From a virus, in IMG/VR virus record IMGVR_UViG_3300042905_000049, positions 1 through 34,698 of that record: 34,698 nt of DNA; one strand, 5' to 3'. Below, in pieces: positions 4,915-32,204 of this stretch. Position 1 is the first letter of the stretch. Each line of letters opens with the position of its first letter. The notes beneath the pieces are model-generated. The model saw only the letters and a list, made by a program, of their open reading frames with translations. It was not told the DNA's origin and did no database searches. A program made the position numbers and the translations under genes.

Positions 4915-5871
4915 ATGAATTACGTTGAATTGTTCAGCACTATTGAGTCGTATACGGAGAATAATTTTCCGGATATTACCCTGTCTAATGGGTCGACAAA
5001 TACATCTACTGAACAGATCAATCGGTTCATTGAACAAGCTGAACAGCGTATCTATAACAATGTTCAGTTTCCGTCTCTTCGCAAAAATATGACGGGCAAC
5101 ATTACAGCAGGTAACAAGTACCTCAAAGCGCCGGATGATTACCTTGCCACATATTCTTTGGCAGTGATTGATGCGTCAGGAAACTACGAGTACTTGCTTA
5201 ATAAAGACGTTAACTTTATCCGTCAAGCGTATCCTAACCCCACTACTGATGTTGGGATCCCTAAGTACTACGCGCTGTTTGGACCCTCTGTTCAGAGCAG
5301 CGTCATTACAAACGAGTTGACGTTTATTCTTGGCCCAACACCTAATACTGGGTACACGGCAGAGCTGCATTTCTATTACTATCCTGAGTCTATTGTTCAA
5401 GCAATAATTGCGTCTTTTGGTACGCTAACAGGCGGCTCTGGCTACACTAATGGTTTGTACTATAACGTGCAGTTGACGGGCGGTAGCGGCACTGCGGCTT
5501 ACGCGGATATTACTGTTAGTGGTGGCGCTGTAACATCGGTTGTTATTCGTAACGGCGGATGCCTGTATAAAGTTGGTAATACGCTTTCAGCAACAGCGGC
5601 AAGCATTGGCGGTACAGGTACAGGATTTTCTGTACCCGTAGCTGCAGTAACAAACGTAACCGGCACTTCATGGCTAGGCGATAACTTTGATACCGTGCTT
5701 TTGTATGGTTCTTTAGTAGAAGCGTATACATTCATGAAGGGCGAGCCTGATATGTTGGCGCTGTACAACCAAAAATATGTAGAAGCGCTTGCGCTGGCTA
5801 AACGTCTGGGTGATGGTATGGAGCGTCAGGATGCGTATCGTTCTGGTCAATATAGACAGGCGGTGACCTGA
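4915..5871 (+). CDS. Head-tail adaptor, phage SU10-like family, with inserted beta domain
   Basis: This is a 318-residue protein. The N-terminal 150 residues (MNYVELFSTIESYTENNFPD, STEQINRFIEQAEQRIYN, then NYEYLLNKDVNFIRQAYP) match the SU10-type adaptor family, which forms a ring joining portal and nozzle in short-tailed phages. The C-terminal end (LLYGSLVEAYTFMKGEPDML and ALYNQKYVEALALAKRLG) completes that fold. About residues 164-247 are a Gly/Thr-rich module (GGSGYTNGLYYNVQLTGGSG and similar strands) absent from a minimal adaptor, which looks like an inserted surface domain. Family assignment is by eye but specific. The stop overlaps the next ATG. Confidence 0.82.
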   Translation: MNYVELFSTIESYTENNFPDITLSNGSTNTSTEQINRFIEQAEQRIYNNVQFPSLRKNMTGNITAGNKYLKAPDDYLATYSLAVIDASGNYEYLLNKDVNFIRQAYPNPTTDVGIPKYYALFGPSVQSSVITNELTFILGPTPNTGYTAELHFYYYPESIVQAIIASFGTLTGGSGYTNGLYYNVQLTGGSGTAAYADITVSGGAVTSVVIRNGGCLYKVGNTLSATAASIGGTGTGFSVPVAAVTNVTGTSWLGDNFDTVLLYGSLVEAYTFMKGEPDMLALYNQKYVEALALAKRLGDGMERQDAYRSGQYRQAVT

Positions 5872-13742: not shown

Positions 13743-14462
13743 ATGGCAAAGACCGCCACTAAGAAGTCAAAACAAAAAGTATGCAAAGCCGCTGAGTCAG
13801 TGGCTCAAGTTGTCCTACAAACACAGCTTCAAGTTGCGTATCACTTCCCGTGCCCTATTTACATTATTGAGCGGCCTGACTTCTTGGAGGCAGTTAATAC
13901 TGTCTCTGAGGAATTTCTCGACGTTGCTAAAAAAGAACGTGACTTAAACGAAATTTATCCTGTCTACATGACGCAAAACTTCTTTGGCGACCCTCGCATG
14001 GCAGGGTTCTCTGAGTTTGTCGGCGCTACTGCTTGGAACATTCTTAATGAGCAGGGCTACGCCATGCAGGACAAAGCGGTGCAGTTCACAGAGATGTGGA
14101 CACAAGAGCACCACAAGCACTCGGCAATGGACGCACACGTTCACGGCTTTGGTTCACAGATCGTAGGCTTTTACTTCCTTGAGACACCAGAAGATTGTTC
14201 TCGCGTAGTCTTTCATGATCCCCGTGCAGCCAAGGTGCAGATTGACTTACCAGAACAAAACATAAGTGCCGCAACACCTGCCAGCAAGATGATTAACTTC
14301 ACACCCAAACCCGGTATGATGATTTTTGCTAACTCATGGTTGATGCACTCGTTTACACGCCATGCGGCAGAGTTGCCAATTAAGTTTGTGCACTTTAACT
14401 TAACCGTGATTCACCAGCCACAACAGGCTTGCAACATTCCTCCAGCGGCTGAAATTGTATGA
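13743..14462 (+). CDS. Putative 2OG-Fe(II) oxygenase (PF13759-like)
   Basis: This 239-residue protein has an AAGGAG ribosome site. After a Lys-rich N-terminal 20 residues comes a cupin-like double-stranded beta-helix pattern: HVHG (His132 and His134) before SQIVGFYFLETPEDCSRV, then VFHDPRAAKVQ, and PKPGMMIFANSWLMHSF with His202. These would give the iron-binding histidines. The FANSWLMHSF...HFNLT ending is that of the putative 2OG-Fe(II) oxygenase family. The usual Arg of the RISLSFN segment is a Lys in PIKFVHFN, so co-substrate binding may differ. The substrate is unknown; modification of a protein, nucleic acid or host product are options. The stop overlaps the next start as ATGA. Confidence 0.8.
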   Translation: MAKTATKKSKQKVCKAAESVAQVVLQTQLQVAYHFPCPIYIIERPDFLEAVNTVSEEFLDVAKKERDLNEIYPVYMTQNFFGDPRMAGFSEFVGATAWNILNEQGYAMQDKAVQFTEMWTQEHHKHSAMDAHVHGFGSQIVGFYFLETPEDCSRVVFHDPRAAKVQIDLPEQNISAATPASKMINFTPKPGMMIFANSWLMHSFTRHAAELPIKFVHFNLTVIHQPQQACNIPPAAEIV

Positions 14463-16384: not shown

Positions 16385-18487
16385 ATGCCATTACAAAAAA
16401 TCCTGTTCAAGCCGGGCGTCAACCGGGAAAACACTCGATACACCACTGAAGGTGGCTGGTATGAGTGCGACAAGGTTCGTTTCCGTCAAGGCAACCCAGA
16501 GAAGATTGGCGGCTGGACCGCATTTGCTTTTGATGTATTCCAAGGCGTATGCCGCTCTCTGTGGAATTGGGTGACGCTTGCTGGCGAGAATTTAGTTGGT
16601 GTTGGCACTAACTTGTATTTTTATATTCTTAACGGTGGCGCTTACTACAACATCACGCCTATTCGTAAGACTGTTACTTTAACTAACCCTTTCGTTGCAA
16701 CTTTAGGTTCTAGCGTTATAAGAATTGCTGAAGTAGATCACGGCTGTGTCAATGGAGACTCTGTTATCTATAGTGGCGCGGGTGTTACAGGGCTTGGCGG
16801 CAACATTACAGCGGCGGTGCTAAAAGGCACTTTTCAAGTAACAGTTATAGATAACGATAACTACACAATTACTGTTTCTGCTACTGCAAATGCTACTGAT
16901 GTGTCTGGTTCTCCCGGCGGCGGTACAGTCATAACGCAGTATGAAGTTAATACTGGAAACACATACCAAGTTCCGCTAACAGGTTGGGGCGCGGGTCCTT
17001 GGGGTGGTGGCACATGGGGCAACGGTAAAGCTGTTCCAACAGCTCTTTATATTTGGAACCAGCAAAACTTTGGCGAAGATTTAATCTACGGTCCTCGTGG
17101 CCAAGGACTCTATTATTGGAGCGCTAACGTAGGCTATTCGCCTATCCAAAGCACAATTAGTATTGCCGCCCCCGGCGTTATTACTCTGCCTACTGGATTC
17201 TCTTTTCCTAATGGCACAACAATTTCGTTTACTTCTACCGGCGCATTGCCTACTGGTCTATCCGTTGGGACTGTTTATTTTGTAGTGAACTCTACAGGCG
17301 GCACATTTAACGTGTCCACAACAATTAACGGCTCTCCAATTACAACCTCTGGCGGACAGTCTGGCCTGCAATTCATTTCTTCTAAAGGTATTAATTTAGC
17401 TGACGCAAGTGATAATGACTGCCCTATCTTTCAGAATAGCCTTATTGTTTCTGATACTTCTCGTTTTGTTCTTGTGTTTGGTACAAACGACTATAACAGT
17501 ACTATTCTTAACCCAATGTTAATTCGGTGGTCTAGCCAAGAAGATCCTTACACATGGACGCCATCAATTACCAATCAAGCCGGTAGTATTCAACTTTCGC
17601 ACGGCTCTGAGATTGTTACTGCTATTCAGACACGTCAAGAGATTATCGTATTTACTGATACGGCTTTGTACTCTATGCAATATGTTGGACCTCCGTTTGT
17701 ATGGAGTTCTCAACTGCTTGGGGATAATATTTCTGTAGCTGGCCCTAACGCTGTAGCACTTGCTTCTGGCGTAATTTATTGGATGGGCGTTGATAAATTT
17801 TATATGTATGATGGCCGTATACAGACGCTTAGCTGTGACTTACGCCGTTATATTTTTCAAGATTTTAATGCTCTACAGTCTCAGCAGGTATACGCAAGTA
17901 CCAATGAAGGCTTTAATGAGATTTGGTGGTTCTACTGCTCTGCCAACTCAAACGAAATTGACCGCTACGTTGTGTATAACTATCTTGAGCGTGTATGGTA
18001 TTACGGCACGATGGGTCGTACTGCATGGTTAGATTCTGGCTTGCTCCCATACCCAATTGCTACAACTTATAACGGCAAGATTGTTCAGCATGAGGACGGC
18101 GTAGACGACGCTGAGAACCCAGATAATCCGCTACCAATCGCGGCAAATATTTCTTCGTCTGAGTTTGATATTGGTGATGGACATAACTTTGGTTTCGTGT
18201 GGCGTATTCTGCCTGACCTGACGTTCTCCGGTTCTTCTAGCTCTACAACACCCCAAGTCACTATGACTTTGTATCCGCTACAGAATTCAGGCTCTGGCGT
18301 TAGTAGCACTGCTTCTGCTTCAGTTGTTAAGAGTTCTACGTATGTTATTACTGAGCAATTTACAGGACAGGTCTACACCCGCGCCCGTGGCCGTCAGTTA
18401 ATATTTAAAATCTCCTCTGCTGATTTAGGCACAACATGGCAGCTTGGTGCTCCCCGTATAGACATTCGTCAAGACGGTAGGAGATAA
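16385..18487 (+). CDS. Tail nozzle / tail tubular protein B-like, with inserted beta modules
   Basis: This 700-residue protein, close in length to T7 gp12 (794), begins with KPGVNRENTRYTTEGGWYEC and then DKVRFRQGNPEKIGGW. That opening is typical of phage nozzle or DNA-stabilising tail proteins. The body has repeated beta blades, including QEIIVFTDTALYSMQYVGPP and VYNYLERVWYYGTMGRTAW, like a beta-propeller. Two extra modules are visible: about residues 98-180 (VDHGCVNGDSVIYSGAGV, then NYTITVSATA) and about 255-332 (TTISFTSTGALPTGLSVGTV). It would close the tail tube under the adaptor. The next gene starts four bases downstream. Confidence 0.78.
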   Translation: MPLQKILFKPGVNRENTRYTTEGGWYECDKVRFRQGNPEKIGGWTAFAFDVFQGVCRSLWNWVTLAGENLVGVGTNLYFYILNGGAYYNITPIRKTVTLTNPFVATLGSSVIRIAEVDHGCVNGDSVIYSGAGVTGLGGNITAAVLKGTFQVTVIDNDNYTITVSATANATDVSGSPGGGTVITQYEVNTGNTYQVPLTGWGAGPWGGGTWGNGKAVPTALYIWNQQNFGEDLIYGPRGQGLYYWSANVGYSPIQSTISIAAPGVITLPTGFSFPNGTTISFTSTGALPTGLSVGTVYFVVNSTGGTFNVSTTINGSPITTSGGQSGLQFISSKGINLADASDNDCPIFQNSLIVSDTSRFVLVFGTNDYNSTILNPMLIRWSSQEDPYTWTPSITNQAGSIQLSHGSEIVTAIQTRQEIIVFTDTALYSMQYVGPPFVWSSQLLGDNISVAGPNAVALASGVIYWMGVDKFYMYDGRIQTLSCDLRRYIFQDFNALQSQQVYASTNEGFNEIWWFYCSANSNEIDRYVVYNYLERVWYYGTMGRTAWLDSGLLPYPIATTYNGKIVQHEDGVDDAENPDNPLPIAANISSSEFDIGDGHNFGFVWRILPDLTFSGSSSSTTPQVTMTLYPLQNSGSGVSSTASASVVKSSTYVITEQFTGQVYTRARGRQLIFKISSADLGTTWQLGAPRIDIRQDGRR

Positions 18488-18490
18488 ACC

Positions 18491-18877
18491 ATGGGCATGC
18501 TTCAGAACCAGAATGCGCCTAACGTACCCGCCGCCCCTGCGCAGTATGAGCAAGGGTTCATGAATCAGTACACCAACGTTCTGAGGCTGTTCTTTAACCA
18601 AATTAACGCGATCCAACAACTTAATTTGGCGCGGTTAAATCTAGACTTAGGCACTTTACCTACCGATGCAGATTACGTTAACTTGCGGTACGGGGATGTT
18701 TACAGAGATACCGAAGGCGGGACTTTGCATGATGGGACTAACGTACTGCGTATCAAAGTACCGGGCAGCATGACTGGCGTATCTGCTTCTGGTGCAGTTG
18801 GATCGGTCAGTGCTACAAAAACAATACCATTAACAGGCGTCTCTAGCACTGGCGCAGTTGGTACAGTTACTCCATAA
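18491..18877 (+). CDS. Small virion protein ending in two ALTGV-type repeats
   Basis: This 128-residue protein has a TAGGAG ribosome site inside the end of the nozzle gene. The N-terminal part (YEQGFMNQYTNVLRLFFNQI, then NAIQQLNLARLNLD) is a helical motif I know from conserved phage structural proteins. The last 40 residues are two copies of the repeat of the gene at 7011-8087: MTGVSASGAVGSV and LTGVSSTGAVGTV, ending at the C-terminus. A small core with a borrowed repeat tail suggests a virion component bearing a surface extension. Confidence 0.77.
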   Translation: MGMLQNQNAPNVPAAPAQYEQGFMNQYTNVLRLFFNQINAIQQLNLARLNLDLGTLPTDADYVNLRYGDVYRDTEGGTLHDGTNVLRIKVPGSMTGVSASGAVGSVSATKTIPLTGVSSTGAVGTVTP

Positions 18878-21006: not shown

Positions 21007-21414
21007 ATGCCCTTTTATCAAATTAACCCGACTCAATTACCAGAAGTATGGCCCGTTGCTGCTCCCCTTTTGCAAAAAGCAATTGATCTTGACCCTAGTG
21101 AAATAACTATTGAACAAGTTGAGTACGCGGTTCGCACAGGACGTACTTATCTGGTAGTGTGGGAAGAACCGGGAGAAGGTATAACAGGCGCAGCGGCGGT
21201 AGACTTTATTGACTATCCGCGAGAAAGAATTGGGCACGGTAATTTGATGGGCGGTAAAGGAATTATGCGCCCACATGTTATTGCAGAGATGTATAAATGG
21301 ATGAAACTCCATGGAGCCACAAAAGCGCAGGTATGGGCTAGAGGTTCTTTGGTTAATATGTATGAGAAGTTTGGGTTAGAAGTTACCCACCAAGTAATGA
21401 GGATTAAATTATGA
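21007..21414 (+). CDS. GNAT-like protein, T7 gp13-type (DUF2833-like)
   Basis: This 135-residue protein, near the 138 residues of T7 gp13, has the layout of a small GNAT fold: a strand with YLVVWEEPGEGITGAAAVDF, RIGHGNLMGGKGIMRPHVIA, then MYKWMKLHGATKAQVWARGS and YEKFGLEVTHQVMRIKL. The usual acetyl-CoA loop (Q/RxxGxG/A) is not obvious, so activity is doubtful. It sits between the tail module and the two large proteins, as gp13 does between T7 genes 12 and 14. In T7, gp13 is needed for infectivity, and a similar part is inferred here. The stop overlaps the next start. Confidence 0.75.
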   Translation: MPFYQINPTQLPEVWPVAAPLLQKAIDLDPSEITIEQVEYAVRTGRTYLVVWEEPGEGITGAAAVDFIDYPRERIGHGNLMGGKGIMRPHVIAEMYKWMKLHGATKAQVWARGSLVNMYEKFGLEVTHQVMRIKL

Positions 21415-24400
21415 TTATCCCAAGCAAATTTAACGGCTATAACAAAGACGGTACTCGTAATCTATTTATGGGTGGCGGTGGCGGTGGTCCAACTCAAACT
21501 ACATCAACTGTTCAGAACACAAACATCCCTTCGTATGCTCAGCCATATGTTGAGTCAATGCTTGGCGCAACTCAAAAGCAGTTGTTCAATACCCGAGAAG
21601 TGGGTGGCACTGCTGCGGTTGCCCCAACTTATGACAGTGAAGGAAACCAACTAACAGCTGGAACTGCGGCTATCCCCGGCTATACAGAACTTACTGGCTT
21701 TAAACCATACCAAGCGTACGGCGGAACGTACGACGCCCAAGGCAATCAGCTTTCCTATGATCCTTCTAAAGGGATTGCCAAGATTGATCCCATGCAGACT
21801 AAAGCCTATATGGGCGCGTATGGCATGGATGTTCCTACCGGCGACTATGCAAACGCTAACTATGTGGCTACACAGGCAGGGATTGGTGGTTTAAATTCTG
21901 TCCAAGACGCTATGCGTTACGGTAAATCTGGATTTGAGTCTGGCATGGCTGGGCAACAATTAGGTTTAGCGGCAGCGGCAGATGCGCAAGCTCTGGCAAA
22001 AGAACAGGCTGGACGCGCTAATAAATTTGGTGATGCTGGCTTTGCTTCTGGTCAAAAAGGCCAAGAGCTTGGTATTGCTGGCGGTAAGTTAGGTATTGAA
22101 GGCGGTGCAAAGTACGGCGAAATGGGCGCTGGTTTTGGAAAACAAGCTGCGGGACTAGCTGATCCAGCATTGGCCTACGGCGCTCAAGGCGCTGGCTATG
22201 GTCAAACAGGCGCGGGTTACGGCGCTCAAGCTGCTCAGTTAGCTAACACAGCTTTAGGTTATGGACAAGGCTCTGCTGACATTGGTCAGATGGCTCTCCG
22301 TGCTCAAGGCTTGGGTGAAAACATCTCTGGTCAATCTCAAGCGTTAGCTCGTCAACAAGCCGGTGCTGGAGCGCAGTATGCGCAAATGGCAACTGATCCT
22401 CGTGTAACTCAGGCATTGATGAATCCATACACACAAAACGTGTTGGATGTTCAGAACAAAGAATTACAACGTCAAGCTGATATTGCTGCGCAAAATCGTG
22501 GCGCGGCTGCTGTTCGCGCTGGGGCGTTTGGTGGCGGTCGTCAAGCCATTGAGAATGCTGAAGCTCAGCGTAATCTAGAAACAATGAAGACTGCCAATAC
22601 AGCGCAGGCTCTCAATCAAGCTTATCAGCAAGCGCAAGCCCAACAGCAGTTTGGTGCTAACCTTAATCTTCAAGGTTTGGCTGGCGCTCAACAAGGTTTG
22701 GGTACAGCACTGCAAGGCGGTCAGTTAGGTCTGTCTGGTCTTGGCACTGCACTTCAAGGTCAACAAGGTGCGTTGGCTGGTGTTGGTCAAGCTGGCGCTA
22801 TGTACGGCCTCGGTATGCAGGGTGCGCAAACAGGTATTCAAGGAACCCAAGCGGGACTAGCTGGTGTTAACGCCGCTAATCAAGCTTATCAAACCGGTAT
22901 TCAAGGTGCAGGCATGGGCTTGCAAGGTGTTAACACTCAGCTGGCTGGTGTTGATCGTCAGTTGGCTGGTACGGCTCAAGGTATGCAGGGCGCGCAAGTT
23001 GGCTTGGCTGGCGTCAATGCTGCTACTAGTGCAGGTCAGTTAGGTTTGCAAGGCGCGCAAGTTGGACTGCAAGGTACGGCTCAAGGTATGCAAGGTGCTG
23101 GTATGGGCTTGCAAGGAGTCCAAGGCGCTCAAGCAGGTTATGGTTTGGCTAATCAATCCGCATCTAACCTCACTAACATGCTTGGCCAACAGCAACAGCA
23201 AGAGCTTGGTCTGTACAACAACCAGATGGCAATGGGCGACAAGAAGATGGCCTACGACCAGTCGATCCTTAATCAGGCTGTTCAAGACTACGCTAACGCA
23301 CAACAGTATCCTCTCATGCAGTTGGGTACGATGTCCAACATGCTCCGTGGCCTGCCAATGCAAGCGTCTACAACAAACCAATACGCTGCGTCGCCTAACC
23401 CTGTTTCACAGGCAGTTGGCACAATTGGCGCTGGTGCGTCTATCTATAACGCTATGAAACCTGGGCCTGGCGGCGCTGCTGGCGGCGAAGTTAAAGGCTA
23501 TGCCAAAGGCGGCATCATGTCTTACGACATGGGCGGTGAAGTTGAAGAGCAGCTTGAGAGCATGGACGAGAAAGGTTTGCAAGCCCAAGCCAGAGAATCT
23601 ACTAGTCCATCTATTCGCAAGATGGCTCAACGTCTGCTGCGTGAACGCCAGATGAGCAAGCAGCCACAAGGCACAGGTCCTATGGGCGTGCAGTATCAAG
23701 CTGCTCAACCTCAGATGCCTAGCTATGCTCCCGGCGGTATTGTTGCATTCCAGCAAGGTGCTGGTGGTAACGGCGTAAAGAGCGCTATTGAAGAAGGCGG
23801 TGAAGAAGACGCTAAGATTGGTATGCAAGAACGCCTTGCTATGCCTCCTTCAACAACTCCTCCTCCCGGCGGTATCATGGGCGCAACTACTCAGCCAGTA
23901 ACGCAAGTTCCTACTGCTCCTGCGGGGCCTTCGCCTGATGTTGTAAAAGAAGCTATGCGTCAACGCGACCTTGCTTCGGCTCAAGCAAATAGACCAACCG
24001 CAGAGTTATTAAAAGAAATTCAAGCTGAACGAGATGCTTTAGGCGTTGGTGAAAACGTGGGGCGTCAAGAATTCCGTGCGCAACAAATGGCTGAGCGCGC
24101 AAACTTGGCTGATGAAAAAGAACGTCAACGCCACATGCGTTTGGCTGAATTCTTTGCTTCATGGGGATCAACCCCTGGTCCAGTGCTTGTTGCTGGTATG
24201 AACGCATTGAAGCAGTCAATACCTGGAATTATCTCTGACGAGAAAGAAGCTAAGAAGGCCCGCAAAGAAGCAGACAAGATTATTTACGATATTGATGAGG
24301 CTACTCGTCTTGAGAAGCTTGGCATGATTGACAAGGCTACGGCAAAGAAAGAACAAGCTGCTAAGCACGCTGAAGACTACAACAAGTACTTGCTCACATT

Positions 24401-25025
24401 TCAGTCTCAGCGCGAGAGCGACAAGAGAGCGCTTGAAGTTGCAGGGATTCAAGCAAAAGCTCAAACAGATGCTGCGGCAATGCGTAACTCCTCAGACAAA
24501 CTTGGTAGGTTGCAAGCGGAAGCGCTTAGAAATGAAGACCGTGTGTTTGGTAGATATCAAGCCGCAACTAAGCAATATGACAGTATTAAAGAGTTTGTTG
24601 CTAAACAAGAGTCTAGTGACACGCACAAAGAAGACTTGAAAAAATTAGAGCGCTATACTATGGGCGCTAAAGACAAGAAGACTGGCGAAATTAATCCAGA
24701 AAAAATTAACAAAGAATATAAAAATGCATACGCTGAAACTCTAAAACGTGTCGAAGAGCGTAAAGAAAAATGGAATACTGCGGTTGAAGATGCCCGAAAA
24801 GAAAAAGATCTTGCTTTTAGCCGGATTAAAAATTTAAGTCCAGAAGCAGTTGAGGCACGGACAGGCCCTAAAGTTAATCCTGCTGATAGTGGCGCGGGAA
24901 CAACCGGCAATTTTCCTACTCCAACAGCTAAACACATCCAAGCGTTGAAGGATAATCCTGGCGCAAAAGCAGAATTTGATGGTAAATTTGGACCTGGCGC
25001 AGCAGATGAATACCTAGGAAAATAA
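21411..25025 (+). CDS. Large internal/ejection-type protein with glycine heptad repeats
   Basis: This is a 1204-residue protein with a four-base start overlap. Order: N-terminal Gly/Gln region; heptad-like Gly/Ala tract (about residues 205-290); a conserved block (MNPYTQNVLDVQNKELQRQA, then AVRAGAFGGGRQAIENAEA); 21 exact heptads at residues 430-576; YAKGGIM and YAPGGIV motifs near 697 and 772; a charged coiled-coil half (about 840-1150); and an end containing KHIQALKDNPGAKAEFDGKF plus GPGAADEYLGK. That end motif recurs in phage virion proteins. Position before the giant protein and after the GNAT-like gene corresponds to T7 internal proteins gp14 and gp15. An ejected pore or scaffold protein is inferred. 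Confidence 0.78.
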   Translation: MIIPSKFNGYNKDGTRNLFMGGGGGGPTQTTSTVQNTNIPSYAQPYVESMLGATQKQLFNTREVGGTAAVAPTYDSEGNQLTAGTAAIPGYTELTGFKPYQAYGGTYDAQGNQLSYDPSKGIAKIDPMQTKAYMGAYGMDVPTGDYANANYVATQAGIGGLNSVQDAMRYGKSGFESGMAGQQLGLAAAADAQALAKEQAGRANKFGDAGFASGQKGQELGIAGGKLGIEGGAKYGEMGAGFGKQAAGLADPALAYGAQGAGYGQTGAGYGAQAAQLANTALGYGQGSADIGQMALRAQGLGENISGQSQALARQQAGAGAQYAQMATDPRVTQALMNPYTQNVLDVQNKELQRQADIAAQNRGAAAVRAGAFGGGRQAIENAEAQRNLETMKTANTAQALNQAYQQAQAQQQFGANLNLQGLAGAQQGLGTALQGGQLGLSGLGTALQGQQGALAGVGQAGAMYGLGMQGAQTGIQGTQAGLAGVNAANQAYQTGIQGAGMGLQGVNTQLAGVDRQLAGTAQGMQGAQVGLAGVNAATSAGQLGLQGAQVGLQGTAQGMQGAGMGLQGVQGAQAGYGLANQSASNLTNMLGQQQQQELGLYNNQMAMGDKKMAYDQSILNQAVQDYANAQQYPLMQLGTMSNMLRGLPMQASTTNQYAASPNPVSQAVGTIGAGASIYNAMKPGPGGAAGGEVKGYAKGGIMSYDMGGEVEEQLESMDEKGLQAQARESTSPSIRKMAQRLLRERQMSKQPQGTGPMGVQYQAAQPQMPSYAPGGIVAFQQGAGGNGVKSAIEEGGEEDAKIGMQERLAMPPSTTPPPGGIMGATTQPVTQVPTAPAGPSPDVVKEAMRQRDLASAQANRPTAELLKEIQAERDALGVGENVGRQEFRAQQMAERANLADEKERQRHMRLAEFFASWGSTPGPVLVAGMNALKQSIPGIISDEKEAKKARKEADKIIYDIDEATRLEKLGMIDKATAKKEQAAKHAEDYNKYLLTFQSQRESDKRALEVAGIQAKAQTDAAAMRNSSDKLGRLQAEALRNEDRVFGRYQAATKQYDSIKEFVAKQESSDTHKEDLKKLERYTMGAKDKKTGEINPEKINKEYKNAYAETLKRVEERKEKWNTAVEDARKEKDLAFSRIKNLSPEAVEARTGPKVNPADSGAGTTGNFPTPTAKHIQALKDNPGAKAEFDGKFGPGAADEYLGK
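22698..23138 (+). repeat. Twenty-one consecutive 21-bp units coding Gly-rich heptads
   Basis: The 441 bases divide exactly into 21 units of 21 bases. Most heptads follow xxx-G/x-[LIM]-[QA]-G, for example AQVGLQG, TAQGMQG and AGMGLQG, so Gly falls alternately three and four residues apart. Some units repeat almost exactly (TAQGMQG twice, LGTALQG twice), pointing to past tandem or segmental duplication. Confidence 0.88.
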
Positions 25026-25026
25026 G

Positions 25027-28000
25027 ATGGCTAATTTTTTCGACCAGTTTGACGCTGAACAAGAAAAAGAAAAAGAACAGAAGCCATCTCAAAACTTCTT
25101 TGACCAGTTTGACGAGCCGGTTAAAAAAGTAGCTACCCCAAAAGCTACAGGCCCTAAGGGTAAAGACACCACGCAATTGCCAGACGATGATGAAACTGGC
25201 GATTTCATGCGCGGGATCTACAATTACTTGCCTCAACTTCAAGAAACCTACGGCGGTGCAAAAGTATTTACGGGTATGGGCCTGAAGAAACTTGGCGCTA
25301 CAGAAACTGGGCAGAGTTTAATTGAGAGCGGCAAAGAGTCGATGGACATTGGCGAGTCCAAGCAAATGACTCGTGAATCTGATTCGCTGACAAGAGCATG
25401 GGAAAAAGGCATCGGTACAGTTGTTACTGATTGGCTTCCCTACAACATTGGTTCAGGCGTTGCTAGCGTTGCCGAAACTCTTGCTGTTATGGGTATTGGC
25501 GCTGGTGTAGGTGCGGTAGCGGGCGCAGGCGCAGGCGCTATACCTGGTGCAGTGGGCGCTGCGGTATCTAAAACACTAGTTAAAAAAGGTATTGTAGAAG
25601 CTGCTGAAAATATTATTGAAACCGAAGCTAAAAAAGCTTTGGCTGCGGGCGCTACTAAACAAGCCGCTAAAGTTGCCGGTGAAACCGCTGGCGCTAAATT
25701 TATTGAATCCCAAAGTAAAAATGTTTTAATTGCAGCAAGTGAAATGGCGGCTAAAGCTTATGGGAAAGCGGGCGCTAAATCGTATGGCGCAACTGCTGCT
25801 ATGGCGGGGCAAGCTGGTTTGTATGGTACAGGCGAGACTACAAGCCGCGCGGTAAATGAAGCCGAAAAAGCGGGCATGGATATAGACGATATTGAGTACG
25901 GACGGCTTGCTACCGCCGCTGCTGTTCACAGCGTAGCTGATTTCTTTATAAATAAAATTGGCGTAGACGCATTAAAGATTGGCGAAAAAGCTACACAGTC
26001 TTTAATTTTGGATATCAGCAAACGTATCGCTGTAACTGGTCTCAAACAAATCCCCGCTGAAGAAATTCAAACTATGGCTGAGCGCTATGGCGCAAAACTG
26101 TCATTAACCGATGCAGAAGCTTTACGTGAATATGTTGATACTGCTGGCGCTGCGTTTGCTATGTCAGTTGGCCCCGGAACAGTTGGCGGCGCTAAAACTC
26201 ACTATGTAAATAAACTTCAGAAAGCTGGCACTGAAGCTGAAGCCGCTGGTAAAACATATAGAGGCGACCTCACAGTTAATAAAGACGTCATACCGCCCAC
26301 GATTAAAGGCTTTGACAAAGAGAGCGCTGATCTATTGATGCCTGCTACAGATGCGGCAGGCAATCCTATTGTTGCCGACGTTGCGGCTCCTGAAGTAACT
26401 GAGACTACACCAGCGCCTAAGAAGACTAGAGCGCCAAAAATTACTGCTGAAGGCGTAACGCCCGAATCAATCCAAGCTGCTAATGACTACGTTGGGAAAA
26501 TTGACGGCGGTGAGACTATTAAGCAATCTGAATACAGGCAGATTGCGAGGGCGGTTGGTCTCAGCATTCCAGTAGGAACAAAAAATAGTGAAGCTGTTGA
26601 ACTTATTAGAAACCACCTTGCACAACAAGGAGCACCTGATGCTACAGGAATTAACACACAAGCAGGTGGAGCAGGCGCTGGAGTGGCTGCACTCGCCAAC
26701 CAAAGCCAGACCGCCGCAGGAACTGCTGGATCTCAACCCGGTGGAGTGGTATCTACTGGAACAAATGCTGGGGCAAATTTGGCTGGAGCAAAGCAGCAGC
26801 CCATTACATTAATAAGTCCCGTAACACAGCGCATCATTGCAGATGAGCATAATGAAGGCGCAACCCCTGCCGAATTAATTACTAAATACGGTAACTCTCC
26901 CGAAGTAGCAGCTGCTATCGACCAATACATTAAAACTTTACCACCAGCAGGAGAAACCCTTGGCACTGAGACCACTGAAACCGAGCAAACAAAAGCGGAA
27001 GGAAAACAACCGCCCTCAACCCTTTCAGCCAAGCGACCAACAACAGTAAAAGGTTGGCTACAACACTTCTTGAAGACAGGTGAGACCGATCCTAAACTTG
27101 CTGCTATTCAGCAAGACTCTCATCCTGCTTTTGTAGCTGACCCAGATGTTACACCAGAGCAAAATGCAAAAGATGCTATGGAGCTTGGTCAGCGTTACGA
27201 GGCAGAGGCTGAAGCGGAGCGCGTTCGTTTACTTAACGAATCCACAGGTAATGGAGCTCTAAAAAAAGAAGACATCTATGCCAGATATGACGCTGAACAA
27301 GAACGGAAGCAAACTGAAGCTGAAGCAGCGTTTGGATTAGAGCCTACAAAAGCTGGTTCTATATCAAAAGAAAACCGTGACAACTATGATAAGGCAAGGG
27401 AAGAATTCCCCGAACTGCCAGAGTGGTCTGATCTAAGTGCAGTTGATAAAGACGTCTACTTTGAAAACGTTCGTTACGGCAACATGCCTGAGCACCGCAA
27501 AGCTGCGCAAGCATTAATTAATTATCGTAAAGAAACAGGTGGACGCAGTAAAGGCTATGGGCAGGGCGCTACAACTGTTGGTGAACAACGTACTATTAAA
27601 AATTATGAAGATAACCGAAACACTGCATCTAAGATGTTTAATGTTTCGTTTCCACGTTGGGGCGATCTATCACGCGTAGCTCAACAAGCCTACCTTGATC
27701 AAATTGTAAATAACGCTGGTTTGCAACAAGACGTTGCTTTTGCAAAAGCCGGTGAAGCGTTGCTCAAAGAAAACCGTGAGCTGTCTGATGATCAGAAGAA
27801 GGCTGAACTTGCTAACATCAACAAGCGCCAAGAAGAAGTTCGTAAAGAAGCTGAGCAAAACAAAGAAGAGTTAGAGAAGTTGCGTAGAACATATGGCGAT
27901 GTAGCATCTACATCTCTTGGTCGTGGTACGCTGCAGCTATCAAAGAGTGTCATTGAGCATCTGCAAAAAGGGCGTCTTGGCTTAGCGCTGCAAGATGTAA

Positions 28001-31000
28001 GCGACACACTTAAAAAGAACAGCGACTCCCGCAACAAAATGTTTGGCTACGTTGCCAATCTACTTGGTAACCTTGGATTAAAAACTAAGATTGAATTTAC
28101 TGATAGATTACCTGACGGCGATTTGGGTATCTACGATCCCTACACTGACACTATTACACTTTCGCTTTCTGGCTTGACTGTGCCTACATTACTGCACGAG
28201 GTGGCCCACGCTGCTACTGTTCGCGTAATGTACATGTACATGAATGGCCAGAAGAACCAACTGACCGAGCGCCAGATTAAGGGCGTTGAACAGATTCTAA
28301 CGATCATGCGCCAAACTCAGTTTGAGTTGCAAGGCGATTACCCCGAGGCGTTTACAAGCCCATTTGAATTCATAGCCTATGCTATGACTGATAAATTCTT
28401 TCAAGCAGATTTGGCTGAGCAAGGGATTGACTACGCTGAGTTCAGTGCGTTGGATATTGCTGCCAAATTAAAGCTGGGCACTGAAGACATTTTTACCATC
28501 TTACCAACAGAGAAGTCTCAGTGGTCTGCGTTTAAGAAAGCTATGGCAGGTATCTTTAAAGTGCCTGCTGGTGCGTTAAAGTCTCCCAACTTTATGGTGG
28601 AGTTGTCTGGGGCATTTGAAGACATCTTGTCTGTGCCAACTGAACCAATCAATCTAGAAACACTGTCGGCTAAGAAACCAAAAGGGCAACAGCCTACAGT
28701 ACCTAAGACAGCTGAGTCTCGAGAAACTGGGCTGTATGAAAAAGATAAAAATTATGAACCAAGCAATAAAGAAAAGTATGGCGTAGATACCGCCGGAGAC
28801 CTATCAAGATTGGGTAAGATTAAGCGCGCTTTTAGTCGTCACGGTTGGAGAGACTTTGTTACTAAGGCGCAGAGTCGTCGTCAGCATATTCGTGCGTATG
28901 AAAATGAATTAAATATGGCGGGGCTTCTTAATCGTGATCCTACGGGCGCGTTTAACAATGTCAGCGAAAAACAAGACTTAGCTTTAAACCAAGGCGTTAG
29001 ATTTGCTATTGACTATCTGCAGCAGCCCCTGCAAAAACTGCATGATACTTTTAATAATTGGTTGCTGACGTCTAACCAGAATACCGAAAAAGGTCTTGAT
29101 CAGTTTCATAGGTTAGCGGAAATGTTCGGCGCAACTGAACGCCGCTTTGCTAAATGGATTACATCCGTACCTTTGAGCAAAACTCAAAACCTAACGCATA
29201 ACGGCAAACCGATTAGCGCCGCTGAGCGTCGTATTCAGCTTATGGGTGATCCCCGCACTGGGGTGGACGGACTGATCCATAAAGTTGCATTGAATGATCA
29301 GCAAAAAGCTGCTATTCGTAAAGAGCTAGAGTATCTTGCTACCAACCATGCCGATGCGCTAGGCGATAGCCCCCGCATCAGTGAAAAGATGCGTCAGCGC
29401 TTTGCTAAAAATCCAAAGCATAAGGGCATAGATACGGACAAAAACGCTCCAATCTATAACGCTCTTGGTATTGAAGAGGCCACAGTCAATAAACGTATGA
29501 CTGAGTTCCTAGCAAAGAGCAAGGAAGAGCAAGCGTTGATTAAAGAAATGTTTGATCAAGTAAAGATCATTACAGATGCCACTGCCGAACTCAACAAGAT
29601 TGGCAACTACTGGTCAATGCCTGTATCCAATATTGTTGGCATCTATAACTATCAATACTACATGCCGTTTAAGGGTCTGTCTAAGCACACCAAAGTGGAT
29701 GACATGATTGACCCCAACAGCAAGATGAATGGCGCTGAAATGCAGGATGAAATTCATGCTGCTGAAGGCCGTTTCTCTACGTCGGATAATCCGTTGCTGC
29801 AAATGATCTATGACGGTTATAGAGCGGCTAGTCGTGCTGGGCGTAAAGACTTTACGCAATCTGTTGAAAATGCAGTTGAACCAACTACAAGCAAAGATGC
29901 GTATAACCCAACGGGTACAGGAGTTATACCTGGCAGGGTAGTTAAAACAGTCCCGTTTTGGGAGCGTGAAACTGTAGATTTATCTAAATACAAAGGCGCT
30001 AATAGCAAGTACATCTTTAACTACAAAGCTGATGGTTCTATGAACATCATTGCTATTGACAACCCTAAATTGCTGCAAGCTATTCGTTACCCATTTAGAG
30101 AAAAAACTCCGTTATGGGACGCGGCTAACCGTATTACGGGCTTCTTTGGCTCGATGCACACACGTTTTAACTACAACTTTGCGCCAAAAGACTTTGTAGT
30201 GAACACGTTAACCAACGCATGGAACGCCGCTACAAGCGAAAAGATTGGCCCACTAGGCGCTGCTGCATATCTAAAAGATGTGGCTATGGCGGTTACTAAA
30301 AATGGTTTGGGCAAGGCCATGAATATTGCTGTGCTGGAAGAAATTGGAAGCGCTGGCAGTAAAAAAGTCATGAGCGACATGGCGGCAAAAGACCCGTTCA
30401 TTCGTGACATGCTTGAGATGATTCGATATGGCGGCAAGAGCACCTACATGGAAAGCTTCTCTCTAAAGTCAAACCTTGAGACTCTTAGTGAAAATTCTTT
30501 TGGCAAAAACAACATCATCACTGACCCTATCAGCGCAACTAAACTGCTAGATAGCTGGAACAACATGTTTGAGTTTACTAGCCGCACGGCTATGTATTCT
30601 TTGTACAAAGAACGGGCACTTAAACAAAACATTGCTGACGGTATGTCAGACAAGAAAGGTCCAAACGGAGAATTGTCCCCAGCTGAACGTGCTGCAGCTG
30701 AAGAAGCAGCTGCATTTACGCTGAACCTTGCGAACTTCTCGCAGCAAGGTGAGTGGGGCAAAGTCATGGGTGCTTTCTATATGTTTAGTAAGCCATCAGC
30801 CACTGGCGCTGTACGAGCACTTGAATCAGTCTTGCCTGCCTTTACTTCGGTAAAACGCGCAATGCAAGATCTGCCCCCTGTGATTGCAAACAACCCTACC
30901 GCAAAAGCAAAATACGAAGAAACTTTTAGAATACGAAAGCGTAACGCGTCTTTCATGACAGGGTCGTTGATTGCTATGGGCGGTGGACTTTTTGCACTGT

Positions 31001-32001
31001 CTATGATGGGCGCACCAGATGATGAATGGGAACGTAACGCTGCATTAACGGATAACATGGAGCAGTGGTCTCGTTATGCTCGTTTCCATATCCCAAATGA
31101 AGTATCTGAAAGACTTGGTCTTGGTAAAGACGTCGTATTCCAAATACCTTGGGGATTTGGCCCGGGTGCGTTTGCTGCAAGTGGTGCGCAGTTTGCTGCT
31201 ATGTTGGCTGGAACAATTACTCCTATTGAGGCAGCAAGCAATATTGCATTTACGATCATGACTGATGCGTTCTTGCCATTACCAATGTCTAAAATTCCTT
31301 TTGTAGACAATAAAGTTATGTGGGTCTTGGACTCAGTTGCCCCTACCGTAATTCGTCCATTCATTGAATGGGTTGCAAACATAAACGGTGTTGGGCAGGC
31401 AATTAACAGCGCTTCTCAACGTCGTATGGGTGACGCCTATACAGGCGGTGACCGCATTCCAGAAATCTACAAAGATGTAGCTGATGGTTTATACGAATCA
31501 ACTCATGGCGCTTTTGATATATCTCCAAACACAATGTACTTCTTCACAAACAGTTACCTTGATGGTGTAGCTAAGATTGCAGAGTTGATGTATTCGTGGA
31601 CTAATCTTGGTAAAGGTGAAAAAGAATTTAATCCTAAGACAGACCTGCCATTGTTTGGTTCGTTCTTTGGCGCTAAGACCAACGTTGATTCTCGTGAGTA
31701 CGGCAAGATAGAGCAAAAAATTAAAGAGATAGATAAACGTTTAGTTACTCTAGATAAACGAAACCCTGCTCTTTATGCGGAGTTTGTAGCTGAAAATCCT
31801 TTGTATCCAAGCATTGTTGAACAGTACCAATCAGCGCAAGGTGAGCTTAATGAAATGCGTCAACGGGCTACCGAGATTCGGAACAATAAATACTTGGCTA
31901 TAAAAGATCGAGATGCGTTGTTAAAGCTGGTTATCCTTGAACAAAATATGCTCAAGTACCGCCTTGTACAAGACTTTAAAGCTATGGGGCTAGAGCGCTA
32001 A
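25027..32001 (+). CDS. Giant polyvalent virion protein with HExxH metallopeptidase motif
   Basis: This is a 2324-residue protein. Visible parts: NFFDQFD twice (residues 3-9 and 23-29); a hydrophobic Ala/Gly segment (about 139-182); Ala-rich helices to about 390; linker sequence; the zincin motif HEVAH at 1057-1061 with Glu1114 in SPFEFIAYAM as a possible third ligand; a block around 1640-1735 with TVDLSKYKGANSKYIF and HTRFNYNFAPKDFVVNTLTN that resembles large polyvalent-protein domains such as LPD38; SQQGEWGKVMGAFYMFSKPS near 1905; a hydrophobic span near 1975-1995; and a charged C-terminus. Such giants are ejected with DNA in short-tailed phages, in the T7 gp16 position. The peptidase may cut host proteins, peptidoglycan crosslinks or virion proteins. 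It overlaps the convergent minus gene by four bases. Confidence 0.82.
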   Translation: MANFFDQFDAEQEKEKEQKPSQNFFDQFDEPVKKVATPKATGPKGKDTTQLPDDDETGDFMRGIYNYLPQLQETYGGAKVFTGMGLKKLGATETGQSLIESGKESMDIGESKQMTRESDSLTRAWEKGIGTVVTDWLPYNIGSGVASVAETLAVMGIGAGVGAVAGAGAGAIPGAVGAAVSKTLVKKGIVEAAENIIETEAKKALAAGATKQAAKVAGETAGAKFIESQSKNVLIAASEMAAKAYGKAGAKSYGATAAMAGQAGLYGTGETTSRAVNEAEKAGMDIDDIEYGRLATAAAVHSVADFFINKIGVDALKIGEKATQSLILDISKRIAVTGLKQIPAEEIQTMAERYGAKLSLTDAEALREYVDTAGAAFAMSVGPGTVGGAKTHYVNKLQKAGTEAEAAGKTYRGDLTVNKDVIPPTIKGFDKESADLLMPATDAAGNPIVADVAAPEVTETTPAPKKTRAPKITAEGVTPESIQAANDYVGKIDGGETIKQSEYRQIARAVGLSIPVGTKNSEAVELIRNHLAQQGAPDATGINTQAGGAGAGVAALANQSQTAAGTAGSQPGGVVSTGTNAGANLAGAKQQPITLISPVTQRIIADEHNEGATPAELITKYGNSPEVAAAIDQYIKTLPPAGETLGTETTETEQTKAEGKQPPSTLSAKRPTTVKGWLQHFLKTGETDPKLAAIQQDSHPAFVADPDVTPEQNAKDAMELGQRYEAEAEAERVRLLNESTGNGALKKEDIYARYDAEQERKQTEAEAAFGLEPTKAGSISKENRDNYDKAREEFPELPEWSDLSAVDKDVYFENVRYGNMPEHRKAAQALINYRKETGGRSKGYGQGATTVGEQRTIKNYEDNRNTASKMFNVSFPRWGDLSRVAQQAYLDQIVNNAGLQQDVAFAKAGEALLKENRELSDDQKKAELANINKRQEEVRKEAEQNKEELEKLRRTYGDVASTSLGRGTLQLSKSVIEHLQKGRLGLALQDVSDTLKKNSDSRNKMFGYVANLLGNLGLKTKIEFTDRLPDGDLGIYDPYTDTITLSLSGLTVPTLLHEVAHAATVRVMYMYMNGQKNQLTERQIKGVEQILTIMRQTQFELQGDYPEAFTSPFEFIAYAMTDKFFQADLAEQGIDYAEFSALDIAAKLKLGTEDIFTILPTEKSQWSAFKKAMAGIFKVPAGALKSPNFMVELSGAFEDILSVPTEPINLETLSAKKPKGQQPTVPKTAESRETGLYEKDKNYEPSNKEKYGVDTAGDLSRLGKIKRAFSRHGWRDFVTKAQSRRQHIRAYENELNMAGLLNRDPTGAFNNVSEKQDLALNQGVRFAIDYLQQPLQKLHDTFNNWLLTSNQNTEKGLDQFHRLAEMFGATERRFAKWITSVPLSKTQNLTHNGKPISAAERRIQLMGDPRTGVDGLIHKVALNDQQKAAIRKELEYLATNHADALGDSPRISEKMRQRFAKNPKHKGIDTDKNAPIYNALGIEEATVNKRMTEFLAKSKEEQALIKEMFDQVKIITDATAELNKIGNYWSMPVSNIVGIYNYQYYMPFKGLSKHTKVDDMIDPNSKMNGAEMQDEIHAAEGRFSTSDNPLLQMIYDGYRAASRAGRKDFTQSVENAVEPTTSKDAYNPTGTGVIPGRVVKTVPFWERETVDLSKYKGANSKYIFNYKADGSMNIIAIDNPKLLQAIRYPFREKTPLWDAANRITGFFGSMHTRFNYNFAPKDFVVNTLTNAWNAATSEKIGPLGAAAYLKDVAMAVTKNGLGKAMNIAVLEEIGSAGSKKVMSDMAAKDPFIRDMLEMIRYGGKSTYMESFSLKSNLETLSENSFGKNNIITDPISATKLLDSWNNMFEFTSRTAMYSLYKERALKQNIADGMSDKKGPNGELSPAERAAAEEAAAFTLNLANFSQQGEWGKVMGAFYMFSKPSATGAVRALESVLPAFTSVKRAMQDLPPVIANNPTAKAKYEETFRIRKRNASFMTGSLIAMGGGLFALSMMGAPDDEWERNAALTDNMEQWSRYARFHIPNEVSERLGLGKDVVFQIPWGFGPGAFAASGAQFAAMLAGTITPIEAASNIAFTIMTDAFLPLPMSKIPFVDNKVMWVLDSVAPTVIRPFIEWVANINGVGQAINSASQRRMGDAYTGGDRIPEIYKDVADGLYESTHGAFDISPNTMYFFTNSYLDGVAKIAELMYSWTNLGKGEKEFNPKTDLPLFGSFFGAKTNVDSREYGKIEQKIKEIDKRLVTLDKRNPALYAEFVAENPLYPSIVEQYQSAQGELNEMRQRATEIRNNKYLAIKDRDALLKLVILEQNMLKYRLVQDFKAMGLER

Positions 32002-32204
32002 CGAAGACGCCAAGCGCGGACTCCAAGGTGGTTGTCCTTGTGCGTAACATAGCACTTGACTCTTACGTTGGCGCGCTTGGCTCCACTTTCTAGGGCGTAG
32101 ATTATCTCGGCAGGGCGCAAGGTGGGGATGAAGAAACTCTCCCCCACCTCCATTGCATCAAATGGAAATATCCACTCTGGTTCTTTGATATCACTTGGAC
32201 TCAT
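31998..32204 (-). CDS. Small conserved phage protein with PFDAMEVGESFFIP motif
   Basis: This 68-residue protein starts at ATG 32204. A longer in-frame opening to 32306 is rejected because it runs backwards through the helicase gene. SDIKEPEWIFPFDAMEVGES, then FFIPTLRPAEIIYALESGAK and a C-terminal GVRAWRLR, is a family I know from phage replication regions. Its MEVGESFF core often follows a helicase or primase. The function is unknown; a small nucleic-acid-binding or regulatory factor is possible. It overlaps the primase gene by 14 bases, so it is translationally coupled. The stop overlaps the giant gene's stop by four bases. Confidence 0.72.
   Translation of the reverse strand: MSPSDIKEPEWIFPFDAMEVGESFFIPTLRPAEIIYALESGAKRANVRVKCYVTHKDNHLGVRAWRLR

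Follow-up and report, generated by a model that had tools for sequence, protein, structure and literature searches.

Two repeat arms of a putative phage ejection protein keep matched lengths and probably form one antiparallel hairpin

The window analysed here is the whole 34 698-nucleotide virus record IMGVR_UViG_3300042905_000049. It encodes a 1204-residue protein in which the lengths of two repetitive arms are locked together as two halves of one predicted hairpin, a property that the original prediction missed. We consider it probable that residues ~139–645 form one long intramolecular antiparallel hairpin, and that in this putative ejected protein a rigid rod sets a physical length. The features are listed in table 1.

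Table 1. Features of the 1204-residue protein and of neighbouring genes in the window.
Feature	Position	Strand	Basis
Gene of the 1204-residue protein	21411..25025	+	ORF call
Protein layout: hairpin half (~residues 1–690) fused to second half (~690–1204)	21411..25025	+	relatives with split genes
N-terminal conserved segment, residues 27–59, TNIPSYAQPYVE...	21489..21587	+	HMM match; conserved in alignment
N-side hairpin anchor, 'GM' segment, residues 119–144	21765..21842	+	HMM anchor
Arm A, residues 145–317, earlier Tyr/Phe-Gly tract, Gly period ~3.58	21843..22361	+	HMM; AF2 helices 161–226, 230–328
Conserved tip segment, residues 318–415, MNPYTQNVLDVQ...GAFGGGRQAIENAEAQRNL	22362..22655	+	HMM; invariant columns
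Predicted hairpin turn GAFGGGR, residues 371–377	22521..22541	+	AF2 non-helix 370–374; indel mirror axis ~residue 370
Arm B, residues 416–619, strict heptads	22656..23267	+	HMM; length series
21 heptads of the original prediction, residues 430–576, inside arm B	22698..23138	+	periodicity
Conserved C-side anchor, residues 620–679, DYANAQQYPLMQLGTMSNMLRGLPMQ	23268..23447	+	HMM
Second half, residues 690–1204, separate gene in some relatives	23478..25022	+	matched by 69/71 fused relatives
2324-residue giant protein with LPD38 domain, downstream	25027..32001	+	Pfam PF18857, E 6.2e-17
700-residue tail/stabilization-type protein	16385..18487	+	PHROG 3287, E 3.8e-64
SU10-type adaptor domain protein	4915..5871	+	PF24175, E 1.1e-16

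Arms were measured in 160 of the 184 ORFs of the family. The original prediction had proposed a comparison of heptad numbers in related phages; among 81 non-redundant relatives of class 1 (less than 80% identity), the number of arm-B heptads varies and the length of arm B tracks that of arm A 1 : 1 (r = 0.998, slope 0.982 ± 0.006). The relation is retained in 80 phylogenetic contrasts on a tree computed without the arm sequences (r = 0.999, slope 0.983); control contrasts against arm-B length gave r = 0.19 for the N-loop and r = −0.30 for the C-tail. Where independent class 1 pairs differ in length, the two arms agree within four residues in 30 of 32 cases, and the two non-matching pairs include L151 and L101, which carry a Pro/Asn- or Pro/Ser-containing stretch in arm A. 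The alignments cover 79 of the 81 class 1 representatives (L101 and L151 omitted) and 27 of the 29 of class 2 (L042 and L081 omitted).

Arm B measures 50 + 7n residues (B mod 7 = 1) in 72 of the 81 class 1 relatives, and the window protein, with B = 204 = 50 + 7 × 22, stands 22 heptads above the shortest of them. Arm length spreads about fourfold within the family; by simple arithmetic at 1.5 Å per residue, the rods of class 1 would span from ~12 nm to 38 nm. A superperiod of five heptads (35 residues) may also exist in arm-B length, 20 of 39 values falling in one class modulo 5, a count uncorrected for kinship.

The positions of the length changes are equally constrained. Among 102 alignable pairs (at least 60% identity in both arms) that contain indels, both arms carry them in all 102 and one arm alone in none; the net change is equal within two residues in 96. 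Indel junctions in one arm mirror those in the other: 15 disjoint pairs, two of which (L202/L226 and L200/L229) are near duplicates, supply 17 points with r = 0.97. The mean deviation from the mirror is 4.3, against 30.9 expected, and none of 10 000 random placements was as good. The mirror axis falls at about residue 370 (offset 7), where AlphaFold places the turn. Because the positions are mirrored and do not run in the same direction, they indicate an antiparallel order of the arms, and the family thus follows the rule for an antiparallel helical hairpin, namely matched and mirrored heptad indels in both arms. At the level of sequence, the matched lengths, the heptad or hendecad steps and the mirrored indels are established by these comparisons.

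Relatives of class 2 keep a different ratio. Their arm B is a hendecad helix (period 3.66–3.69; B mod 11 in {0,4} for 44 of 51), and their arm A is predicted by AF2 to be non-helical and mostly coil. The contrasts of arm B against arm A have a slope of 1.99, roughly two residues of arm B for each one of arm A; the slope is 2.09 ± 0.05 for the 21 members with A of at least 30 residues, and only 7 of 11 independent pairs lie within eight residues of 2 : 1. The relation was then confronted with loci found later, in which 122 of 165 tip-bearing ORFs were measured and 60 were kept after removal of redundancy (22 of class 1 and 38 of class 2). All 30 tip-96 loci with A of at least 30 lie within two standard deviations of a line fixed in advance; the other eight class 2 proteins have A below 30 and are outside this count. 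Of the 22 loci sorted into class 1 by tip length, eight violate the 1 : 1 bound, so that tip length is an imperfect sorter of the classes. By arithmetic, five of these eight lie within 14 residues of the 2 : 1 line, with 7–14% Pro + Asn + Asp in arm A, L394 and L248 are a few residues out, and L300 is off both lines.

The glycine rhythm of arm B, on which the original prediction was founded, is far above chance. Residues 430–576 form 21 unbroken units in a single heptad register with a period of 3.50. The glycine power at 3.5 was equalled in none of 2000 shuffles, and the maximum over periods 2–12 in 1 of 500. The 21 consecutive units are therefore upheld, although 'exact' overstates the case, as glycine occupies the two heptad phases in 18 and 12 of the 21 units; likewise, the alternation of glycines three and four apart does not hold throughout, 11 of the 41 glycines being off these phases. 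The earlier tract, said to have the same rhythm, does show helical periodicity, but its glycine signal peaks at 3.6 and shows no surplus at 3.5. Family-wide, the Gly/Ala period is 3.58 in arm A versus 3.50 in arm B. Homologues devoid of periodicity had been named as evidence that would count against the prediction; the relatives keep the register over the entire arm B (window residues 416–619). In the arm-B heptad, Gly/Ala occupy the face at phases 3 and 6 and Gln/Asn the face at phases 5 and 1. A Leu/Ile/Met stripe at phase 4 adjoins the Gly/Ala face, in agreement with the original description of Leu, Ile or Met beside glycine.

Glycine is a poor helix former, and the glycine content of ~25% counts against a helix. 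The heptads had been read as helical, and both the register kept in relatives and an AF2 monomer model of residues 1–684 of the 1204 support this. The model, of modest confidence (mean pLDDT 66.9, pTM 0.35, arms largely 50–70), contains helices at 161–226, 230–328, 339–369, 375–505, 514–568 and 584–645, with a break at 370–374, and so supports the helices and the turn. Its residues 228–512, a range centred at 370, superpose on the hairpins of SMC proteins and chemoreceptors with Z up to 12.5; a Z of ~12 is below the level that would imply more than a common arrangement of long helices. Whole-model TM-scores from Foldseek against BFVD and PDB are low (query-normalized, up to 0.26), and these lists were therefore not used for claims about the family.

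The assignment to ejection proteins comes from the relatives. Of 79 class 1 relatives, 46 match the PHROG 4287 family, named 'DNA ejection protein', which covers short relatives nearly completely (residues 7–296 of 302 in L134). Relatives from Caulobacter, Synechococcus and Pelagibacter phages match it as well; relatives in cultured phages include gp064c of Caulobacter phage GB2A and a 316-residue protein of Synechococcus phage MinM2. This agrees with the view of an ejected protein, though Pfam and PHROG scans of the 1204-residue protein gave nothing above threshold. From the PHROG naming and the gene order, the 1204-residue protein is probably injected with the phage DNA. In the non-redundant set of 110 relatives, 33 carry the first half as a separate ORF, 71 have the fusion and six show neither; in 28 of the 33, a second-half homologue begins directly downstream. 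The 700-residue stabilization-type protein places the gene in a short-tailed-phage module; several relatives carry the annotation '(phage) stabilization protein'. The downstream 2324-residue LPD38 protein may be a large ejected protein. Neither it nor the 1204-residue protein had a match by tblastn in INPHARED, and a genome scan yielded only one locus, in a Chitinophagales MAG.

The proposed placement as T7 gp14/gp15 was not supported (hhalign probability 0.07% for gp14). Pfam and PHROG scans of the neighbouring 135-residue ORF were empty, while T7 gp13 matches PF11090, and on these two tests a T7-like module was rejected; T7 gp15 matches phrog_1339 in the PHROG scan. Homology to P22 gp7, plausible by position and style, was likewise not supported (hhalign 7.6% against one sequence and 0.27% against six), and P22 gp20 gave 0.06%.

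Steps of heptad size are what 21-bp tandem units would produce by neutral expansion and contraction, with inherited relatedness accounting for the matched lengths, and some relatives are close. This explanation is already contradicted and has a negligible probability: a DNA-level tandem array is rejected in the window (TRF detects no more than 2.1 copies of a 21-bp unit, at 79%), the length match survives the contrasts and the independent pairs, single-arm indels are absent and positions mirrored, and class 2 holds its 2 : 1 ratio with 11-residue steps. The original reading of the heptads as glycine-zipper transmembrane helices packing into an envelope pore is compatible with an arm B that is Gly/Ala/Leu-rich and nearly uncharged (3.4% charged residues in arm B of the window protein) and with the membership in PHROG 4287; N4 gp51 and gp52 are described as forming bilayer channels (PMC12633501). 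Composition disfavours it, Gln/Asn accounting for 62% and 54% of two arm-B heptad phases. Moreover, arms of ~200 residues far exceed a bilayer, and single-pass zipper helices need no locking of arms A and B to equal length. The membrane-insertion prediction, computed on an insertion scale for 19-residue segments, gave +8.0 kcal/mol for the best arm-B 19-mer, a weak test as a three-TM holin control in the window reached only +5.9. Such a pore appears quite improbable.

Matching of lengths alone cannot separate contacts within a subunit from parallel or intermolecular pairing, in which arm A of one subunit lies on arm B of another, and ejection proteins do oligomerize. Against such pairing, which we judge unlikely, stand the antiparallel order given by the mirrored indels, which a hairpin provides for free, and the coincidence of the turn in the AF2 monomer with the mirror axis. 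A different question is where the length matters. The hairpins may be rods around or above the portal, their length fitted to the portal or core in the capsid and not to the host envelope. DEV gp72 is described as encircling the portal as a 12-mer until ejection and N4 gp51 as a helical hairpin beside it, and the roughly fourfold variation of arm length within one family, hard to reconcile with a fixed width of the periplasm, points the same way; such a location has perhaps less than one chance in three. A role in an envelope conduit is inferred to be probable.

In the intramolecular hairpin that we favour, arm A would run outward to the conserved tip and arm B would return alongside, its Gly face most likely packing closely against the Gly/Ala face of arm A. 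Since the two arms have to finish at the same height, any heptad added to or deleted from one of them would call for its counterpart at the mirrored site of the other, so that the length of the rod could change while hairpin ends and tip stay constant. Class 2 would obey the same length rule with other material, an extended arm A beside a hendecad arm B. The protein would be packaged in the head and ejected ahead of the DNA; oligomerized hairpins could then line up as staves to build a conduit with a Gln lining, or form a sleeve around it, with arm length setting the reach of the conduit or of a docking partner. Tentatively, and with odds clearly short of even, the family may be an adjustable physical ruler for which a single length law governs two materials (1 : 1 in heptad steps where both arms are helices, ~2 : 1 where a hendecad helix lies against an extended chain), arm length being tuned to the distance that the conduit must span in the virion or host envelope.

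In most lineages of short-tailed phages the passage through the envelope is still to be explained, and the rapid divergence of ejection proteins defeats homology searches. Here many natural variants conform to a law of arm lengths so strict that it yields the topology of a protein whose structure has not been solved. This law predicts which deletions should be tolerated, and makes directly testable what an ejection protein measures. We found no prior description of it by title and abstract, in a literature coverage that leaves out most subscription journals.

Several known systems resemble parts of this picture. The window protein differs from the PHROG 4287 family in falling below threshold and in its fused second half. 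In SMC proteins, as described in PMC5344682, the coiled-coil arm is likewise long and intramolecular, and certain lengths of it are preferred, but they are ATPases with another function and steps of ~100 residues. The cytoplasmic hairpin of bacterial chemoreceptors (heptad classes such as 36H and 40H) is reported to combine a conserved tip, used for signalling, with seven-residue indels that are symmetric between its arms (PMC5907407). It superposes on the AF2 model, but belongs to a signalling protein and showed no sequence relation. We know of no extended-arm class among chemoreceptors. The hairpins of periplasmic adaptor (membrane fusion) proteins of efflux pumps, likened here by description, are reported to gain or lose length through heptads in both helices (PMC4446572), in proteins that are cellular and membrane-anchored. 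The H protein of phiX174, an unrelated virus, is described as a Gln-lined helical tube (PMC7354561); its helices, rich in Gln and composed of heptad and hendecad units, are similar, but ten single helices build each tube and there is no hairpin. DEV gp72 is described as a portal ring that, as recombinant protein, forms a nonameric tube read as the post-ejection form (PMC10925440), and N4 gp51 as a portal-adjacent helical hairpin assigned by its authors to the periplasmic tunnel (PMC12633501). Likened by description (PDB sequence scans found no phage chain), both resemble the proposed hairpin as helical ejection proteins that adjoin the portal and are assigned to the tunnel after ejection.

A single heptad register spans 21 units (residues 430–576) in the product of the hairpin gene, so named for its first half (residues 1 to about 690). 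Glycine occupies one position in 18 of the 21 units and another in 12, and its rhythm at 3.5 residues is stronger than in all 2000 shuffles of this tract. The rhythm reported in the original prediction is therefore real, but the repeat is not exact, and the earlier Tyr/Phe-Gly tract, said to share it, is periodic with a slightly longer period (about 3.58–3.6). A DNA-level tandem array as the source of the heptads was ruled out for this gene.

Relatives were sought in viral contigs; hundreds matched, and at most 80 per scan were kept. Arm A (residues 145–317 in the window protein) was measured from a conserved N-side anchor to the tip, the conserved segment between the arms (318–415), and arm B (416–619) from the tip to a conserved C-side anchor. 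Both could be measured in 160 of 184 family ORFs, and 110 representatives were left after dropping those more than 80% identical. Tip-segment length sorts them into class 1 (81 representatives, arms about 1:1) and class 2 (29, about two residues of arm B per residue of arm A).

In class 1, B = 0.98A + 34 (r=0.998). Heptad counts, whose comparison among relatives had been proposed, do vary in 7-residue steps, with B = 50+7n in 72 of the 81. The window arms (A 173, B 204) are among the longest, B being at least 204 in three of the 81. Tree contrasts between the arms give r=0.999, and arm changes are equal within 4 residues in 30 of 32 independent pairs; the two mismatched pairs involve L151 and L101, both with a Pro-containing stretch in arm A. 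On the tree, the lengths of control segments from the same proteins do not follow that of B (r=0.19 for the N-loop, r=−0.30 for the C-tail).

Among the relatives, 102 pairs share 60% identity or more in each arm and carry an indel; in every one of them both arms have one, and the net length change agrees within 2 residues in 96. Indel positions are mirrored about the tip (r=0.97; 17 points, 15 disjoint pairs), with a mean deviation of 4.3 residues versus 30.9 under random placement (0 of 10 000 as good) and an axis at residue 370 (offset 7 plus measured arm ends). The AlphaFold (AF2) monomer model of residues 1–684, of modest confidence (mean pLDDT 66.9, pTM 0.35), is helical, as the original prediction expected of the repeat region, with long helices interrupted at 370–374. 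Modelled residues 228–512, whose midpoint is 370, can be superposed on hairpins of SMC proteins and chemoreceptors with Z up to 12.5, which for helical bundles is no decisive value. The sequence evidence and the model concur in predicting an antiparallel hairpin that turns at GAFGGGR (371–377), a geometry revealed, at the level of sequence, by the length covariation of the arms.

Class-1 arm A has about one extra residue per 50–60 relative to arm B, B−A drops from 34 to 28–32 with longer arms, and the Gly/Ala period is 3.58 in arm A versus 3.50 in arm B; one of the two paired helices may contain skip residues. Heptads beyond the minimum are 4 mod 5 in 20 of 39 (raw counts, relatedness included), hinting at 35-residue steps in arm B, and 35-residue indels recur among aligned relative pairs.

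In class 2, B is about 2A+28, with a slope of 2.09±0.05 for the 21 representatives with A of at least 30 and 1.15±0.09 for the eight short-armed ones. Arm A has more Pro, Asn and Asp and less Gly, and is mostly coil in AF2 (low confidence). The arm B period is 3.66–3.69 residues, the hendecad value, versus 3.50 in class 1; B mod 11 is 0 or 4 in 44 of 51 proteins of class-2 type, whereas class 1 goes by mod 7. The rise per residue is about 3.0–3.1 Å in an extended chain and 1.5 Å in a helix, and equal physical length therefore predicts a 2:1 ratio. The length prediction was recorded before new loci were retrieved. All 30 new proteins with tip length 96 and A of at least 30 lie within 14 residues (two s.d.) of the class-2 line, and their own slope is 2.02±0.03. 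With tip length 98/99, 14 of 22 fall within the class-1 bound, and B mod 7 = 1 in 15. Judged from the printed lengths, five of the eight misses are no more than 14 residues away from the 2:1 line (their arm A contains 7–14% Pro+Asn+Asp), L300 fits neither line, and L394 and L248 each miss by a few residues. Both length laws thus hold, and tip length is an imperfect sorter.

The composition of 34 long class-1 arms bears on the proposal of a glycine-zipper membrane helix. In arm B, Gly fills 80% of phase 6 and 60% of phase 3, Leu/Ile/Met/Val/Phe make up 77% of phase 4, and Gln/Asn account for 62% of phase 5 and 54% of phase 1; charged residues amount to 0–3% at every phase. Arm B is accordingly predicted to be a helix with one tight apolar face and one uncharged amide face. 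Such a helix is unlike a plain membrane zipper and recalls the Gln lining described for the phiX174 H tube (PMC7354561). A simple insertion scan also points away from membrane insertion, though its control was weak; on composition, the membrane reading is disfavoured. Placement as T7 gp14/gp15 is likewise unsupported, because T7 gp14 scores 0.07% by hhalign and the neighbouring 135-aa ORF gives no match in Pfam or PHROG scans, whereas T7 gp13 matches PF11090. No homology to P22 gp7 or gp20 was detectable by hhalign. The surroundings in this IMG/VR virus record look like a short-tailed-phage module.

Features of the window around the hairpin gene
Feature	Position (strand)	Length	Match or remark
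Hairpin gene	21411–25025 (+)	1204 aa	
ORF directly preceding it	21007–21414	135 aa	cf. L249 4874–5230
Capsid-type protein			PF25209; near hairpin gene
Two SU10_adaptor proteins			near hairpin gene
GH108 endolysin			near hairpin gene
3TM holin			near hairpin gene
Protein		700 aa	near hairpin gene; relatives annotated stabilization protein
Protein		2324 aa	LPD38; downstream of hairpin gene
Repeat protein	7011–8087	358 aa	~20-residue repeats (LTGVSATGEVGTV...); Pfam scan empty
ORF	18491–18877	128 aa	ends in same motif as the 358-aa protein
Three successive Gly-rich ORFs	9549–13218		fn3 in first (E 1.8e-8), others alike by eye; probable fibre paralogues
2OG-Fe(II) oxygenase	13743–14462		PF13759; amid tail genes
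DUF927/primase-helicase-like protein	32191–34677 (−)		opposite strand to hairpin gene

Genes similar to the oxygenase lie close to tail genes in DSL-LC04 and HTVC027P. In Octadecabacter virus DB2, the relative of the hairpin gene lies just downstream of a gene annotated as 'acetyltransferase'; neither the latter nor the 135-aa ORF matches Pfam.

Short relatives (300-odd residues) match PHROG 4287, 'DNA ejection protein'. One gene encodes both halves, the hairpin one and the second (about 690–1204), in 71 of the 110 representatives; the hairpin half stands alone in 33, directly followed by a second-half homologue in 28 of these, and six have neither arrangement. Fission or fusion of the two is seen on comparing the window gene with L009, L011, L193 and L211.

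The hairpin protein would be packaged, ejected and oligomerised, and arm length may match the envelope, portal or head. Helical ejection proteins can behave in this way: DEV gp72 forms a ring round the portal and then a nonameric tube (PMC10925440), and N4 gp51 a portal-side hairpin assigned to a tunnel (PMC12633501). Our literature search found no description of a symmetric-indel rule in ejection proteins and no pointer to a helix-plus-extended version. Symmetric heptad indels are described for chemoreceptors (PMC5907407) and efflux adaptors (PMC4446572), and preferred lengths for SMC arms (PMC5344682). Such indels are known elsewhere; the rule in ejection proteins, including its helix-plus-extended form, is apparently new.
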